A stretch of DNA of 64,000 nt from an uncultured Pseudomonadota bacterium (GTDB lineage: Bacteria; Pseudomonadota; Gammaproteobacteria; Steroidobacterales; Steroidobacteraceae): NCBI GenBank assembly GCA_903884105.1, contig CAISDJ010000105.1, forward strand, positions 1-64,000, read 5' to 3'. This document shows, piece by piece, positions 20,732 to 48,410 of this stretch. A program made the translations under genes and the position numbers. The first letter of the stretch is position 1, and every line of letters begins with the position of its first letter. The notes under the pieces were generated by a model. That model did no database searches and was not told where the DNA came from. It was given only the letters and a program-made list of their open reading frames with translations.

Positions 20732-20815
20732 GGAATCCTCGAAGCGGTTTTGGCAAAGAGCGGAGGGCGCGCAGCCCTCTGGAGGCGGGTAGGATAGCAG
20801 GAGCGCAGAGGGGAG

Positions 20816-20950
20816 GAAGAGGATAGGGGATAGGGAATAGGGAATAGTCATAACCAGGTGGTTGCACACCTGATGTCGTGCAAACTCTGATTTCGCTCGG
20901 CTTCGGATCTTCCTCTACTCCACGCTATCCCCTATCCCCTATCCCCTACC
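20816..20950. repeat. Facing arrays of GGGGATA / TATCCCC units (hairpin)
   Basis: The left arm (about 20820-20846) holds GGATAGGGGATAGGG plus two GGGAATA variants. The right arm (20924-20950) holds three and a half CTATCCCC units. Fifteen bases of the left arm are perfectly complementary to the right arm, and more pair with mismatches. A second small stem (CAGGTG / CACCTG) sits in the loop. The arms occupy the divergent suhB/trmJ upstream region. It belongs architecturally with the arrays near 29.7, 44.1 and 48.3 kb. Confidence 0.7.
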
Positions 20951-20967
20951 GCCTGTTTTCCCGACTC

Positions 20968-29673: not shown

Positions 29674-29816
29674 GGGACTGGCGATTGGCGATTGGCGATT
29701 GGTGGGATCGGGGAACAACTATGCAGCGTTTATCATCTCGCCGGCCTCCTTGGGGCGCACCTGGCTGCGGCGCTGATTTCACGAGTTCTGGCTCATCGCC
29801 AGTCGCTCGTCGCTAG
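29674..29816. repeat. GGCGATT tandem units with facing degenerate complement
   Basis: After the bamB stop, GACTGGCGATT is followed by two more GGCGATT units and GG (29677-29702). About 90 bp on, ATCGCCAGTCGCTCGTCGCTAG (29795-29816) contains a 9-bp perfect complement (ACTGGCGAT / ATCGCCAGT) and decayed further units. It fills most of the bamB-der gap. The plan is the same as the arrays at 20.8 and 44.1 kb, with a different unit. Confidence 0.6.
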
Positions 29817-29825
29817 CCGCATCTC

Positions 29826-43217: not shown

Positions 43218-43793
43218 TTACTTGCCGCCTGCCGCAGCGAGTACGCCTTCGATCGCCTTGTTCAGCGCCGGCGATTCAGGCGTGGCGTCGCTGTCGAAGT
43301 AGCTGACGACCTTGCCGTCGGCTGCGACGACATACTTGTTGAAGTTCCAGGCCGGCTCCTGCGCCTGGCGAGCGAGTTCCTTGAAGATCGGGTTGGCGGC
43401 GCGGCCCTTGACGCTGCTCGGCGCGATCATCGTGAATGTCACACCGTTGTTCAGGAAGCACACTTCGGCAGCCTCGGCTTCGTCCTTGGCTTCCTGGTTG
43501 AAATCGTCCGACGAGAATCCGACCACGACCAGGCCCCGGTCCTTGTACTTGCGATGCAACGCCTCGAGTCCCTTGAACTGGGGGGTGTAGCCGCAGTGGC
43601 TCGCGGTATTGATGATCAGCAGCGGCTTGCCGGCGGCCAGCTTGCAGACATTGACTGTCTCGCTCGAATGCAGCTTCCGGACCGTCTGGTCCAGGTAAGC
43701 AGGGCAGTCCGCGGCCGAGGCGGCGGGGCTATGGAACAGGACGGCAAGCCCAAGCGCGAAGCCCGCGGCAACGAAGGACAGACGACCCGTCAT
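43218..43793 (-). CDS. Glutathione peroxidase family protein, exported
   Basis: The 191-residue product has a signal peptide (about 1-28) followed by a GPx thioredoxin-like fold. The peroxidatic Cys lies in NTASHCGYTPQFKGLEAL. VVVGFSSDDFNQE supplies the Gln position, and the conserved Trp-Asn are in EPAWNFNKYVV. The usual FPCNQF box is altered to FSSDDFNQE, so the family resolving Cys of that box is absent. Extra Cys residues (DCPAYLD; VNVCKLA; VCFLNN) could serve instead. Periplasmic peroxide defence is the likely role. Confidence 0.88.
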   Translation of the reverse strand: MTGRLSFVAAGFALGLAVLFHSPAASAADCPAYLDQTVRKLHSSETVNVCKLAAGKPLLIINTASHCGYTPQFKGLEALHRKYKDRGLVVVGFSSDDFNQEAKDEAEAAEVCFLNNGVTFTMIAPSSVKGRAANPIFKELARQAQEPAWNFNKYVVAADGKVVSYFDSDATPESPALNKAIEGVLAAAGGK

Positions 43794-43858
43794 GGCATTC
43801 ACCTGGATGGACTCATGGGGGTTGCTGCAACCCTGCCGCAACCCGGAAAACCGCTGCG

Positions 43859-44044
43859 TCAGGATAACCTGACTCGCTCTTTGCCGCACCGTTTGCAGCG
43901 CTCCGGGGTGATCAATTTTCCCTCGTGAACGTCGAATCGCGCTGCGGCTACGACTGCCCACTTGTGGAAGCCGGACACGCACAGGTTCTTGCCCTCCGCG
44001 CGCTGCCGCTTCACTTTCTTGAGCTGGATGACGTTGGAGGGCAT
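43859..44044 (-). CDS. Zinc-ribbon micro-protein, conserved hypothetical
   Basis: The 61-residue basic protein begins MPSNVIQLKKVKRQRAEGKNLC. It has Cys-x5-His early (CVSGFHKWAV), then CKRCGKERVRL near the end, which together could form a zinc-binding ribbon. I have the impression of similar small proteins in Xanthomonadales-type genomes, without a named function. It sits just upstream of the glutathione peroxidase gene on the same strand and just downstream of the large GGAAGC repeat. Confidence 0.65.
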   Translation of the reverse strand: MPSNVIQLKKVKRQRAEGKNLCVSGFHKWAVVAAARFDVHEGKLITPERCKRCGKERVRLS

Positions 44045-44079
44045 CTAAGGTTGGGAGGCAGTGAAGCGGGCAGTGGGGT

Positions 44080-44298
44080 GGGGAAGCAAGGAAGCAAGGA
44101 AGCAAGGAAGCCGGGAAGCTAGGAAGCTAGGAAGCTAGGAAGCTAGGAAGCCAGGAAGCCAGGAAGCCAGGAAGCCAGGAAGCAAGAAGCTGACCCGAAT
44201 GGTGCGCAGATTTTCTGGCTTCCTCACTTCCTCACTTTCTTGCTTCCTTACTTCCTAGCTTCCTAGCTTCCTTAACTTCAGCTTCCCTGATCTTCCCC
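44080..44298. repeat. Large inverted array of GGAAGCNA / TNGCTTCC octamers
   Basis: From 44080 to about 44192 about thirteen 8-nt units run head to tail, in blocks: GGAAGCAA, then GGAAGCTA, then GGAAGCCA, then GGAAGCAA. After a roughly 22-nt spacer, about 44214-44298 carries the complementary octamers (CTTCCTCA, CTTCCTTA, CTTCCTAG, GCTTCC). The two arms could form an imperfect hairpin of 80 bp or more. It lies between the DUF4159 gene and the zinc-ribbon gene, both transcribed right to left, and is free of coding potential. Confidence 0.85.
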
Positions 44299-44315
44299 GG
44301 TGCGCGCCGCTTCCG

Positions 44316-45167
44316 CTAGTGCGTCAACGTGTAGAGGGCGTAGTTGACGCCGACCCGGATTCCGAGAGCGGAATCTTCCTGCGGGTAGCTCGGGTCGTCG
44401 GCCCACTGCATGGAGTCGCCCATGTCGTTGTTGAACAGGATCGCGGCCATGACACGGCCGTCGTCGTCGAGCACCGCGCGCCAGTGCGGGTCGACGCCAT
44501 CGGCACGGTAAGGCACGCCGCGGCCGTTCAGGGACTGCCAGTTCGCGATTTGCTTGCGGTCCTTGAGATCGTAGAGCACATGGAAGATGGGGTGGTCTTC
44601 TGCCAGCTCGATGATCGGCCGGTCAGGGAAGACGCGCCGCATGGTCTCTTCGAAGCCCTGCCATTCCCGCGTGCCGAAGAAGCTGTCACACAGCAGGAAG
44701 CCGCCGCGCAGCAGGTAGTCGCGCAACTTGGCGACCTGCTCGTCCGATAGCTCCCAGGTCCCCGGCAGGCCCACCATCAGGAAGGGCCAGTCGTAGACGT
44801 CGTCACCGTCATCCAGGTTGACCGGCTGCTCCACGGAACGGACATCGATCGTGGTCAGTCTCTTGAGCAACCGGGCATAGGTCCGATCACCCCGCGGATA
44901 GTCGACCGCCCAGCTGGTGCCGCCTTCCCGCCAGTCGCCGCCCCGTCCGAACCGCCAGCCCGCGCGCGGCGGATACATCAACCGGCCGACGACAAACTCG
45001 GCGGGGACATTGTAGTCAGGGGGCAGCGCGACGTCGGCCTGGTCCTCGAGGCTGCGGTACACGCGAAATTCGCGTTGCGCGTAGAGCGCGGTGCTGAACA
45101 CGGCCAGGCCCGCCGCCAGCAGCCATGCCAGCCTGGAAACCGACCGGGGAGGGCCTATCGCCGGCAC
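44316..45167 (-). CDS. DUF4159 domain protein, exported
   Basis: The 283-residue product has a signal segment (about 10-30) and the DUF4159 pattern: EFVVGRLMYPPRAGWRFGRGGDWREGGTSWAVDYPRGDRTYARLLKRLT. It then has PFLMVGLPGTWELSDEQVAKLRDYLLRGGFLLCDSFFG and AILFNNDMGDSMQWAD. The fold resembles class-I glutamine amidotransferase-like domains, but the activity is unknown. It starts 6 bp after the cotH-like stop, so it is probably in the VTC-DUF4956-CotH operon. Confidence 0.88.
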   Translation of the reverse strand: MPAIGPPRSVSRLAWLLAAGLAVFSTALYAQREFRVYRSLEDQADVALPPDYNVPAEFVVGRLMYPPRAGWRFGRGGDWREGGTSWAVDYPRGDRTYARLLKRLTTIDVRSVEQPVNLDDGDDVYDWPFLMVGLPGTWELSDEQVAKLRDYLLRGGFLLCDSFFGTREWQGFEETMRRVFPDRPIIELAEDHPIFHVLYDLKDRKQIANWQSLNGRGVPYRADGVDPHWRAVLDDDGRVMAAILFNNDMGDSMQWADDPSYPQEDSALGIRVGVNYALYTLTH

Positions 45168-46761: not shown

Positions 46762-47448
46762 TCATGCCCGCTCCGGTTCGACGCTTTCAAGCCGGATATC
46801 CTGGATGCCTTCCACCAGATTGACCGCCTTGACCAGGGCTTCAGGCGAACTCGCCGGGCGCAGGCGTGCCTCGATCAAGTATTCGAGGGACGCACCTTGC
46901 CGGTTTGTTGCAACCGAGAGCACGCGGCGCGACACGCAAAACTGGTTGAGCGTCGGACCCACCGTTGTCTCAATGTCGTGGCCGAGCGCCATTCGCAGGC
47001 GCAGGGTGTACGGAACTGCAAGGTCTGCGGCAAAGCCCGTGCGCGTGGCGATGACGAATGAGGTGACGCCTACGATCACGACGCCGATCACGGCGACCCA
47101 CAGGTTGGCCGCGCCGACTGCCATGCCAACGACCACGGCGAAGATCACGAAGGCGGTGTCGCGCGTATCCCGGACGACGGTCCGGAACCGGACGATCGAC
47201 AGGGCTCCGACGAGACTGAAGGCGCGCGCCACGTTGTTGCCGATGACCTGCGTGACCATCGCGATCAGCACGGACAGCAGCACGAGCGTGACCAGGAACG
47301 AAGAGCCCGCTTCCGCCTGGCGCGAAGTGCGCACGTAAATCCAGGCTACAACGCAGCCAAGCAGTACGGCTACGCCAAGCCGGATAAAGATGTCGACCGG
47401 TGCGATCGCGACATCCCCGATAAACGGGGTAGTCAGGAATTCAGGCAT
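46762..47448 (-). CDS. DUF4956 membrane protein
   Basis: The 228-residue product has about four to five helices in its first 125 residues, including the family signature NNVARAFSLVGALSIVRFRTVVRDTRDTAFVIFAVVVGMAVG (about 70-110). A soluble C-terminal domain follows, ending in a ferredoxin-like strand (LEYLIEARLRPASSPEALVKAVNLVEGIQDIRLESV). It overlaps the VTC gene end by 8 bp. The function is unknown; pairing with VTC and CotH suggests a joint process at the cell envelope. Confidence 0.9.
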   Translation of the reverse strand: MPEFLTTPFIGDVAIAPVDIFIRLGVAVLLGCVVAWIYVRTSRQAEAGSSFLVTLVLLSVLIAMVTQVIGNNVARAFSLVGALSIVRFRTVVRDTRDTAFVIFAVVVGMAVGAANLWVAVIGVVIVGVTSFVIATRTGFAADLAVPYTLRLRMALGHDIETTVGPTLNQFCVSRRVLSVATNRQGASLEYLIEARLRPASSPEALVKAVNLVEGIQDIRLESVEPERA

Positions 47449-48205
47449 CGGCTCTCTCCGTCCTGGGCCGGTGTTGCAGGGAGGCAGCGGCCGGAGCGGC
47501 CAGTCCCAGCGTAGTGACCGCGAGTCGATACTTGGAAATGCGCTGCGGCGAGGGTGCAAGTTCCGTAATCAGCCGCTTGAACAAGGCAGGCAGCGTGTGG
47601 CGATACTTGAGTTCAAGTATCCATGTCTGGTCCAGTAACGGCGTCCCGACGCTGCGGTCATCGAACGCATGCGCGAGCCGTGCCGATGCCCGGAGGTCGC
47701 GGTCCAACGTCATCCGGATTGGATGGCCTTCAGCGGTGCCGACTCGCGCGGTCCGCTGATACGAGATCTGGCAGACCGGTTGCAGTTGCCGCCCAAGCAG
47801 GCGACGGTGAAACCAGAACCCCGGCCAGTCGACGGAGGCCGACGCGCCCTTCAGGAGGGGCAAGGAATCGATGCCGACCAGAGAACGCCGCTTGCTGACC
47901 CAGATCCTCGTCTTGGTCTTGCGCTCCAGGAAGATGGACTCGTTGCCGTTATAGCGCCGCACGCGGTACTTGCTGCGTCCGAACGAACCACTGCCGTGAA
48001 AGACATCAAAGCGGTTCGTGTCGAAGTAAAGGCTGGTGATGCCGTAGGTGTCGTGGTCTGCGCCGGTCCCGTTCGGGTCAGGCTCGAGGTGGGTTCGAGC
48101 CCACGCGCGGATCAACTCGACCCGGTCGGGAGGAATGAGGAACTTGATCTCCGACGCGAACTCGCGCCGCTCCACGGTACCTGAGTGGCGCTTCATCAGA
48201 CCCAT
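47441..48205 (-). CDS. VTC-domain (polyphosphate polymerase-like) protein
   Basis: The 254-residue product matches the VTC/CYTH-type tunnel domain. It has an early EIKFLI strand (E-x-K), YGITSLYFDTNRFDVF, SKYRVRRYNGNESIFLERKTKTRIWVSKRR, and a late WILELKYR with acidic and basic tunnel residues. In yeast this fold makes polyphosphate from ATP. It heads the VTC-DUF4956-CotH-DUF4159 series. A Met three codons in is an alternative start. No SPX domain is attached. Confidence 0.88.
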   Translation of the reverse strand: MGLMKRHSGTVERREFASEIKFLIPPDRVELIRAWARTHLEPDPNGTGADHDTYGITSLYFDTNRFDVFHGSGSFGRSKYRVRRYNGNESIFLERKTKTRIWVSKRRSLVGIDSLPLLKGASASVDWPGFWFHRRLLGRQLQPVCQISYQRTARVGTAEGHPIRMTLDRDLRASARLAHAFDDRSVGTPLLDQTWILELKYRHTLPALFKRLITELAPSPQRISKYRLAVTTLGLAAPAAASLQHRPRTERADA

Positions 48206-48280: not shown

Positions 48281-48380
48281 GGGGAAGTCAGGGAAGCCAG
48301 AATTGCCGCTGCTACGCATCTGATTTCCCTTGTCCGGCTTCGTAAGGCTTCCTCGCTTCCCCAGCTTCCCAGCTTCTCCA
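48281..48380. repeat. GGGAAGC / GCTTCCC facing units
   Basis: GGGGAAGTCAGGGAAGCCAG (48281-48300) faces a right arm of four GCTTCC-type 8-9 nt units (48336-48380: GCTTCCTC, GCTTCCCCA, GCTTCCCA, GCTTCTCC). This is a shorter relative of the octamer array at 44.1 kb. It fills the gap between the MBL-fold gene and the VTC gene, both on the minus strand. Confidence 0.6.
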
Positions 48381-48410
48381 GAGGCATGGCTCAGTGGCGT
48401 CCTGAACCCA

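Follow-up and report, generated by a model that had tools for sequence, protein, structure and literature searches.

Facing tandem octamer arrays between genes of a Steroidobacteraceae genome: layout, position and unit turnover of a repeat class

The focal locus and its neighbourhood

The DNA analysed here, referred to as the window, is a stretch of 64,000 nt from an uncultured member of the Steroidobacteraceae (assembly GCA_903884105.1, contig CAISDJ010000105.1). Three minus-strand genes border the focal locus: a DUF4159 gene on one side and, on the other, a small ORF with a glutathione peroxidase-family gene after it. Between the DUF4159 gene and the ORF lie 13 GGAAGCNA octamers faced by imperfect complementary octamers (Table 1). 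The same minus-strand gene run contains a VTC-domain gene (47441-48205), whose neighbours we take to be a CotH-like and a DUF4956-like gene. Genes were called with a purpose-built hexamer model, the starts of which are over-long at 20.8 kb (homology begins at residues 47 and 35).

Table 1. Coordinates of the focal arrays, the adjoining genes and the companion loci in the window.
Feature	Position	Strand	Remarks
Left G-rich arm, 13 GGAAGCNA-type octamers	44082..44188	+	TRF, arm pairing, unit reading
Spacer (hairpin loop)	44189..44211	.	No match in the other sequence examined at E 0.01
Right C-rich arm, complementary octamers	44212..44279	-	Recurring apex word TCTGGCTTCC comes first
Degenerate outward extension of the right arm	44280..44314	-	Further CTTCC words
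Whole stretch lacking in same-genus G001	44046..44319	.	2 nt in G001
Small ORF, 61 aa	43859..44044	-	Called; no Pfam/NCBIfam match; start just left of the insertion
GSHPx, glutathione peroxidase-family gene	43218..43889	-	Next after the small ORF, same direction
DUF4159 gene	44316..45167	-	Stop codon at the right edge of the insertion
GGGATAG / CTATCCC facing heptamer arrays	20815..20954	.	Divergent inositol-monophosphatase / trmJ intergenic region
TGGCGAT array with weak facing partner	29679..29820	.	Between bamB and der
GGGAAGC-type short facing hairpin	48283..48381	.	G001 site: different G-first sequence

A preliminary description of this DNA had proposed that about thirteen octamers are followed by complementary ones that could form a very long hairpin, and this was borne out. 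TRF placed the left array at 44082-44183 (12.8 copies, 94% matches, score 148), and its units read, in order, CAA (three times), CCG, CTA (four times), CCA (four times) and CAA. The best arm pair was 61 nt long, 85% complementary and 30 nt apart, and degenerate CTTCC words prolong the right side to 44314. Folded as RNA on the strand of the neighbouring genes, the region reached -125 kcal/mol (z -9.93), below 200 of 200 dinucleotide shuffles. A unit-agnostic tandem scan of the window returned five array stretches and none in five mononucleotide shuffles. Given both this difference and a fold below all shuffles, the focal arrays are not due to chance. The suggestion that they could be assembly artefacts is unlikely to hold, since the focal and other compared arrays lie inside contigs with unique flanks, and the flanking genes have the same order in a relative that has no array. 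No T-run follows either focal arm, so that the locus lacks the U-tract of an intrinsic (Rho-independent) terminator, and an Rfam search of the window gave no match at gathering scores.

Three companion loci had been named alongside the focal one, and they proved to be unequal. At 20.8 kb the two heptamer arrays face each other and form a strong pair (fold z -6.5). At 29.7 kb, however, a clean left array has a weak partner (score 12; fold z -1.2), and the locus at 48.3 kb is short (z -0.9); these two of the four window loci fold no better than their shuffles.

Facing arrays elsewhere in the genome

The four loci had also been taken to represent a genome-wide class with shared architecture and locus-specific units. 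Three perfect octamers in a row (GGAAGCNAGGAAGCNAGGAAGC) were found in 84 matches at 24 separate places in the genome (3.73 Mb, 144 contigs), and the reversed control gave no match in the same genome. As the octamer triple recurs at 23 places besides the focal one, units are specific to families rather than to loci. Four GGGATAG units (up to three mismatches) occur at 14 places, including the 20.8 kb locus of the window; the reversed control is uninformative here because GGGATAG reads alike backwards.

The shared architecture, in contrast to the locus-specific units, was upheld. In 464 kb, a unit-agnostic scan found 28 arrays, 16 of which have an inverted partner at a score of at least 14; at four control positions per array, one such partner was found. 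A search for paired inverted arrays with a catalogue of their units, as had been advised, yielded further loci: facing arrays were counted at 29 loci in the 576 kb sampled, or about 190 per genome if evenly spread. This set includes GGAAG loci obtained by a G-first word search, and gene context was assigned for 27 of the 29. At least four unit families coexist in the genome. Strict arrays in the unbiased stretches comprise GGAAG (12), GGTGGTC (12), GGGGATA (5), GCGAYT (2) and unclassified units (4); in all own sequence examined, which was partly fetched by unit, the corresponding numbers among 84 arrays are 46, 13, 17, 2 and 6. Among 16 neighbouring array pairs, 13 are G-then-C pairs of one family, none is C-then-G and three involve unclassified arrays. 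By eye, the locus L219 (G000:C82, about 47.5 kb) has a G-first/C-last pair with non-complementary arms, GGTGGTC/GGTGACT on the left and TATCCCC on the right; as these belong to different unit families, the layout is possible without complementarity. GGGGATA-type arrays with no inverted partner within the scanned distance are present at L217, L222 and L223.

Among the genomes searched, the GGAAG unit is private to this one. A four-unit GGAAGNNN pattern had 143 matches here and matched one of 199 other family members, where its reversed control matched equally often. The facing pattern GGGRATN, searched in 274 genomes of the class, matched a single GGGGATA locus, in this genome; that search used a strict pattern and about one genome per genus, and is uninformative on Xanthomonas. 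In relatives sampled irrespective of unit, an orientation-blind detector located a single strong facing locus in G001, the closest genome (734 kb examined), and another in the 411 kb that came from other relatives. The latter (L075:8797-8909, JAGVUU010000103.1), in another gammaproteobacterial MAG, consists of facing, G-first arrays of a unit of its own, AGTGATT. Transfer by a virus was considered and rejected: seven viral contigs match the three-unit pattern, and no large facing GGAAGC pair was seen in the stretches inspected. Two of the viral contigs, with 62% GC (L254 and L259; IMGVR_UViG_3300017987_004049 and 3300029258_002569), carry a small facing hairpin just past a stop codon; one of its arms has GGAAGC units, the other AAGCCTC (GAGGCTT) units.

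Orientation and position relative to genes

The G-rich arm came first in 17 of 17 loci found by the orientation-blind detector in the 576 kb of unbiased sequence, and in 26 of 26 in the stretches fetched by pattern (some loci are in both sets). This order is seen whichever strand is read. When GGAAG-type loci were collected with the same word criteria for both orders, 39 were G-first, two of them with a right arm in common, and none was C-first; in the unbiased stretches the count was 20 to 0. A figure of 29 G-first loci in 29 is partly so by construction because that set includes loci from the G-first word search. No significant G-first skew was detected in array-free intergenic regions of this genome, G001 or other relatives.

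Arrays have a preferred place between genes. At 22 loci between tandem genes, the array starts at a median of 9.5 nt past the stop codon and ends at a median of 49 nt before the next start, with two of the 22 distances deriving from overlapping start calls; 18 of the 22 arrays are closer to the stop than to the start (p 0.01). Arrays are depleted between divergent genes: of 27 regions with an array one is divergent, compared with 64 of the 209 that have none (p 0.002), and adding the 20.8 kb locus, missed by the first tally, makes it two of 28 (p 0.007). For convergent regions the unbiased sample gave no significant enrichment: they account for 5 of 27 regions with an array and 20 of 209 without (p 0.18). 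A larger tally gave 12 convergent, 17 tandem and three divergent contexts; some of its loci had been selected by unit, and two were duplicates (L038 = L052, L048 = L062). All 11 unique convergent loci are G-first. Avoidance of Shine-Dalgarno sequences was ruled out as the cause of the orientation, since convergent gaps, which have no start codon to protect, are also G-first. Three of 29 loci lie mostly within a called gene, one of them owing to an over-long start call.

Canonical terminators are no rarer beside arrays: terminator-like sites were found at one of 30 array-bearing gene ends and at 14 of 165 elsewhere (p 0.47), which gives no evidence that arrays replace terminators. By eye, an ordinary terminator adjoins the array at L035, L043 and L045, and a hairpin-plus-T-run terminator lies within the spacer between the arms at L046:1961-2176, so that this spacer looks like native gene-end sequence.

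Growth of the arms and the common apex

Local expansion of sub-blocks (CAA, CTA and CCA variants) had been noticed at the focal locus, where CTA and CCA each form a run of four, and it is general. Adjacent units were identical in 107 of 288 cases, as against 59.7 +/- 5.1 expected from shuffles within arms, a value reached in none of 2000 shuffles. Such an excess is the signature of units being duplicated locally inside each arm. The same description had seen in the layout a hairpin-templated or palindrome-generating process, and that part failed. Templated copying should leave the order of units mirrored between the arms; over 34 loci, five positional identities were counted against 6.0 expected from shuffled order, and the outer units of the two arms of a locus are no more alike than those of different loci (p 0.53). 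The arms are therefore not copies of each other, and a palindromic or hairpin-templated origin was rejected.

The innermost units, which meet at the apex, are more uniform. Of 39 right arms, 30 have CCA or CCG innermost, whereas 55 of the 213 other units are of these two types (p 2e-9); for left arms the corresponding counts are 22 of 39 and 42 of 170 (p 2e-4). The exact apex pattern GGAAGCCRGA-N8..38-TCYGGCTTCC is present at 15 places in this genome and in 0 of 58 relatives. When the letters beside the apex were compared, the two arms of a locus matched no better than arms of different loci (p 0.97), and counts revealed no covariation at the apex; selection on pairing is thus unsupported by the apex letters. 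When the spacers were compared with the sequence examined, with duplicate records set aside, their matches were other GGAAG arms and one 16-nt match in G001 (E 0.010).

Orthologous sites in the sister genome

G001 belongs to the same genus, is 77% complete and has 1.8% N in the part examined. Among 47 facing loci in own sequence, 19 have both flanks in the G001 stretches examined. Five of these 19 sites (five of 16 gap-type sites) are empty in G001, where they hold 2-31 nt: 274 nt here correspond to 2 nt at the focal site, 164 nt to 26 nt between bamB and der, 205 nt to 21 nt at L058, 192 nt to 24 nt at L054 and 221 nt to 31 nt at L031. L058 also has a lone GTGGCCG heptamer array (2757-2783), apparently in or beside coding sequence, and the G001 sequence is shorter there. 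At the focal junction a target duplication could be at most TA (2 nt) by eye, and the flanks of the empty sites are too diverged for short duplications to be recognised. In nine other loci (L072-L080), the bamB-der gaps measure 67, 127, 2, 2, 2, 2, 6, 15 and 131 nt; as the gap is not short in the two that come closest after G001, a gain between bamB and der is suggested mainly by G001 and by the absence of a comparable array.

Three of the 19 sites align through and, by eye, hold homologous hairpins in G001 that are shorter or degenerate, one of which has the same spacer with a shorter right arm. The other 11 hold unalignable sequence in G001, at one site 1385 nt long, in which the detector found no facing array. 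Ten of the G001 gaps are shorter than 200 nt, and eight of these are G-first in skew, one of them weakly (0.09), while the skew of the other two is negative. A skew of at least 0.44 was found in six of the ten against 16 of 206 comparable spacers (p 9e-5, the threshold having been chosen after the values were seen); a Mann-Whitney test against the background gave p 0.0009, with the edges of G001 gaps set by BLAST ends and those of background spacers by gene calls. Several unalignable gaps look like facing repeats of other units, such as GGGCTGGGGGCTGG ... CAAGCCTCAAGCC. A run of three GAGGCTT units, with one mismatch allowed, was found at three places in G001 (C140, C175 and C38; six matches) and at one place here (C137; two matches), with no match among 57 other relatives. 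Not every unit has changed, as an AGCGRCT facing site is common to both genomes (L062 and L180). GGAAG words also occur in G001 at low copy, 16 G-first and nine C-first and mostly coding; three of the 16 G-first cases are fully and one is partly non-coding, against none of the nine C-first cases. On the whole, the units are replaced from one species to the other, but the sites and the layout tend to be retained.

Possible origin and function

The focal locus is probably a member of a facing-repeat hairpin family, strongly expanded in this genome, that has grown by slippage and whose layout is kept for a role at RNA 3' ends, a reading that we favour with some reserve. The comparisons above show a GGAAG-family hairpin, with the recurring apex GGAAGCCRGA ... 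TCYGGCTTCC and a locus-specific loop, in the spacer directly behind a stop codon, where at some sites the sister species has nothing. Each arm lengthens independently by duplicating neighbouring units of 7-9 nt, as replication slippage would do. Units turn over between species, the G-rich-first/C-rich-second layout tends to be retained, and arrays mostly avoid both coding sequence and the promoter regions of divergent genes. Position, symmetry and hairpin strength suggest that the element may act in RNA at transcript 3' ends. The layout might be kept because an RNA hairpin works there whichever direction is transcribed, and the hairpin could limit read-through, 3'-to-5' decay or both, as REP/BIME hairpins do.

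Much of this could also be produced by neutral, slippage-prone DNA, an explanation that is possible if rather unlikely: the arrays would be microsatellite-like by-products that survive where they are harmless, behind stop codons, with no function and with hairpin and orientation as side effects. Local duplication of units and a location outside genes and promoters fit such a view, and so do species-specific units, unrelated spacers, arrays that are single or non-complementary and the lack of covariation at the apex; nor was a regulatory role identified in Xanthomonas by the authors of the study of its repeats, as far as the accessible part of that study goes (PMC4692102). Neutral slippage alone, however, predicts neither a preference for facing pairs nor the fixed G-first order that was seen (17 of 17; 39 to 0), and it predicts neither a common apex motif nor G-first sequence of other units at the same sites in G001 (the Mann-Whitney result above). 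The spread of one unit to two dozen and more sites is not explained by slippage alone. A bolder proposal, to which we give little credence, is that some bacteria possess an orientation-locked process by which facing G-first/C-last short-repeat hairpins are placed in tiny intergenic gaps, their units being multiplied and altered later in each species separately. The element class would then be defined by layout and not by sequence, and its polarity would be the one that results when repeats are added at the two 3' ends of a break. Were this true, a site and its architecture would be inherited while the repeat "dialect" changes.

Two further explanations concern how the arrays could have arrived. 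They might be the ends of a mobile element of MITE or REP type moved by a host transposase such as RAYT, which we consider improbable. Empty sites in a relative, many copies with a common apex word and the presence of two Y1_Tnp (RAYT-like) genes in the genome would all suit mobility. The spacers, on the other hand, are locus-specific in the sequence examined, which means that no conserved core was copied; neither Y1_Tnp neighbourhood contains GGAAG arrays, one of the two genes lying about 200 nt from a contig end; REP tags (GTAG/CGTC) stand at five of 78 array feet, where 8% is expected by chance; and any target duplication at the focal junction is, by eye, not longer than 2 nt. Still further from what we expect, and very improbable, is end-addition, in which repeats would be added to the 3' ends of an intergenic break and the ends then joined, leaving G-first/C-last arrays. 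Telomere-telomere fusions show this polarity. The strictness of the polarity agrees with end-addition, and so do the empty sites, where 2-31 nt take the place of the two arms and the spacer seen here; the homologous low-copy hairpins of G001, however, fit gradual growth better, and the genome, which is 99.3% complete, has no match to the reverse transcriptase family PF00078, for which five of 21 genomes searched have matches. Repeat addition driven by a reverse transcriptase, whether telomerase-like or retron-like, was rejected as far as PF00078 shows. The hairpin family with a role at 3' ends remains the reading that we prefer.

Comparison with known systems

REP and BIME sequences of enterobacteria and pseudomonads are short dispersed intergenic hairpins that stand behind stop codons and act at mRNA 3' ends; the REP/RAYT type has a GTAG or CGTC tag at the foot of a palindrome of 20-40 nt and flanks a Y1_Tnp (RAYT) gene. 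The arrays described here are likewise dispersed intergenic hairpins behind stop codons, but their arms consist of 7-9 nt units repeated in tandem and their loop is not conserved. Identity with REP/RAYT systems was rejected, as there is no array near the Y1_Tnp genes and no enrichment of GTAG/CGTC; a MITE with a copied core was rejected as well, as the spacers are locus-specific in the sequence examined. One Y1_Tnp gene (L212, G000:C61:1196-1519) is flanked by imperfect inverted repeats of the GCCAGCCTTGCATTATTTGCCATAT type that are, by eye, unrelated to the GGAAG arrays. The BrickBuilt MITE is also an intergenic element with tandem repeats but, as far as its accessible description goes, it has a 23-nt unit, leader and tail subunits and one array instead of two facing arms (PMC4596501). 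The TAACTGA heptamers of Beggiatoaceae and cyanobacteria resemble the present units in being tandem 7-mers that are spread across intergenic regions and patchy among species. They form direct arrays, mostly just upstream of starts, and the accessible text gives 169 direct sets and one inverted repeat in the genome concerned (PMC4679880). Facing pairs are thus the rule here and not there.

The kind of element is already known from Xanthomonas. The study of its GGGAATC repeats appeared in PLoS One in 2015, reportedly with Rehm as first author. According to the accessible part of that paper, on which the following statements draw, GGGAATC heptamers (defined as GGGAATC, or GGGANTN with at least one GGGAATC) form 186 and 183 G-rich tandem arrays, biased to intergenic regions, in Xcc and Xac (PMC4692102). 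Two repeats stand in close convergent orientation in 70 (Xcc) and 75 (Xac) cases, which bears out the impression, voiced in the preliminary description, that similar arrays occur in Xanthomonadaceae (PMC4692102). The repeats lie near stop codons and are rare between divergent genes; for 83% the gene context is conserved in the sister species, though lengths differ (PMC4692102). Transcript starts and stops were reported to be commoner in repeats capable of forming quadruplexes than in others, and such repeats were identified in Xanthomonas and not in other gammaproteobacteria (PMC4692102). The facing pairs were noted in 2015 in the course of work on G-quadruplex elements and were left without a function (PMC4692102).

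The class described here agrees with the Xanthomonas one in that facing pairs have the G-rich strand first, are intergenic, lie near stop codons and are rare between divergent genes. It differs in its units (GGAAG, GGGGATA, GGTGGTC and GCGAYT), several families of which share one genome, and in the sister genome, which has no GGAAG arrays at the orthologous sites save short degenerate forms, five of 19 sites being empty. The GGAAGCNA and GGTGGTC units have GG only, although the GGGATAG family has GGG. Since the two commonest units, GGAAG and GGTGGTC, lack GGG, three-tetrad G-quadruplexes were rejected as the common principle; that these units nevertheless have the same facing layout, orientation and stop-codon position suggests that what the two classes have in common is the hairpin with its polarity. 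A full-text literature search, which covers few subscription papers, brought up no report of facing octamer arrays in this lineage that was recognisable from titles and abstract openings. To conclude, what is new with respect to the known repeats is a non-quadruplex octamer unit, the presence of several families in one genome, a polarity measured blind across families, and sister-site evidence that points to gain and unit replacement. The comparison with G001 catches sites that are empty, that hold short or degenerate forms or that carry other units, and thereby offers a handle on the birth and replacement of such arrays.
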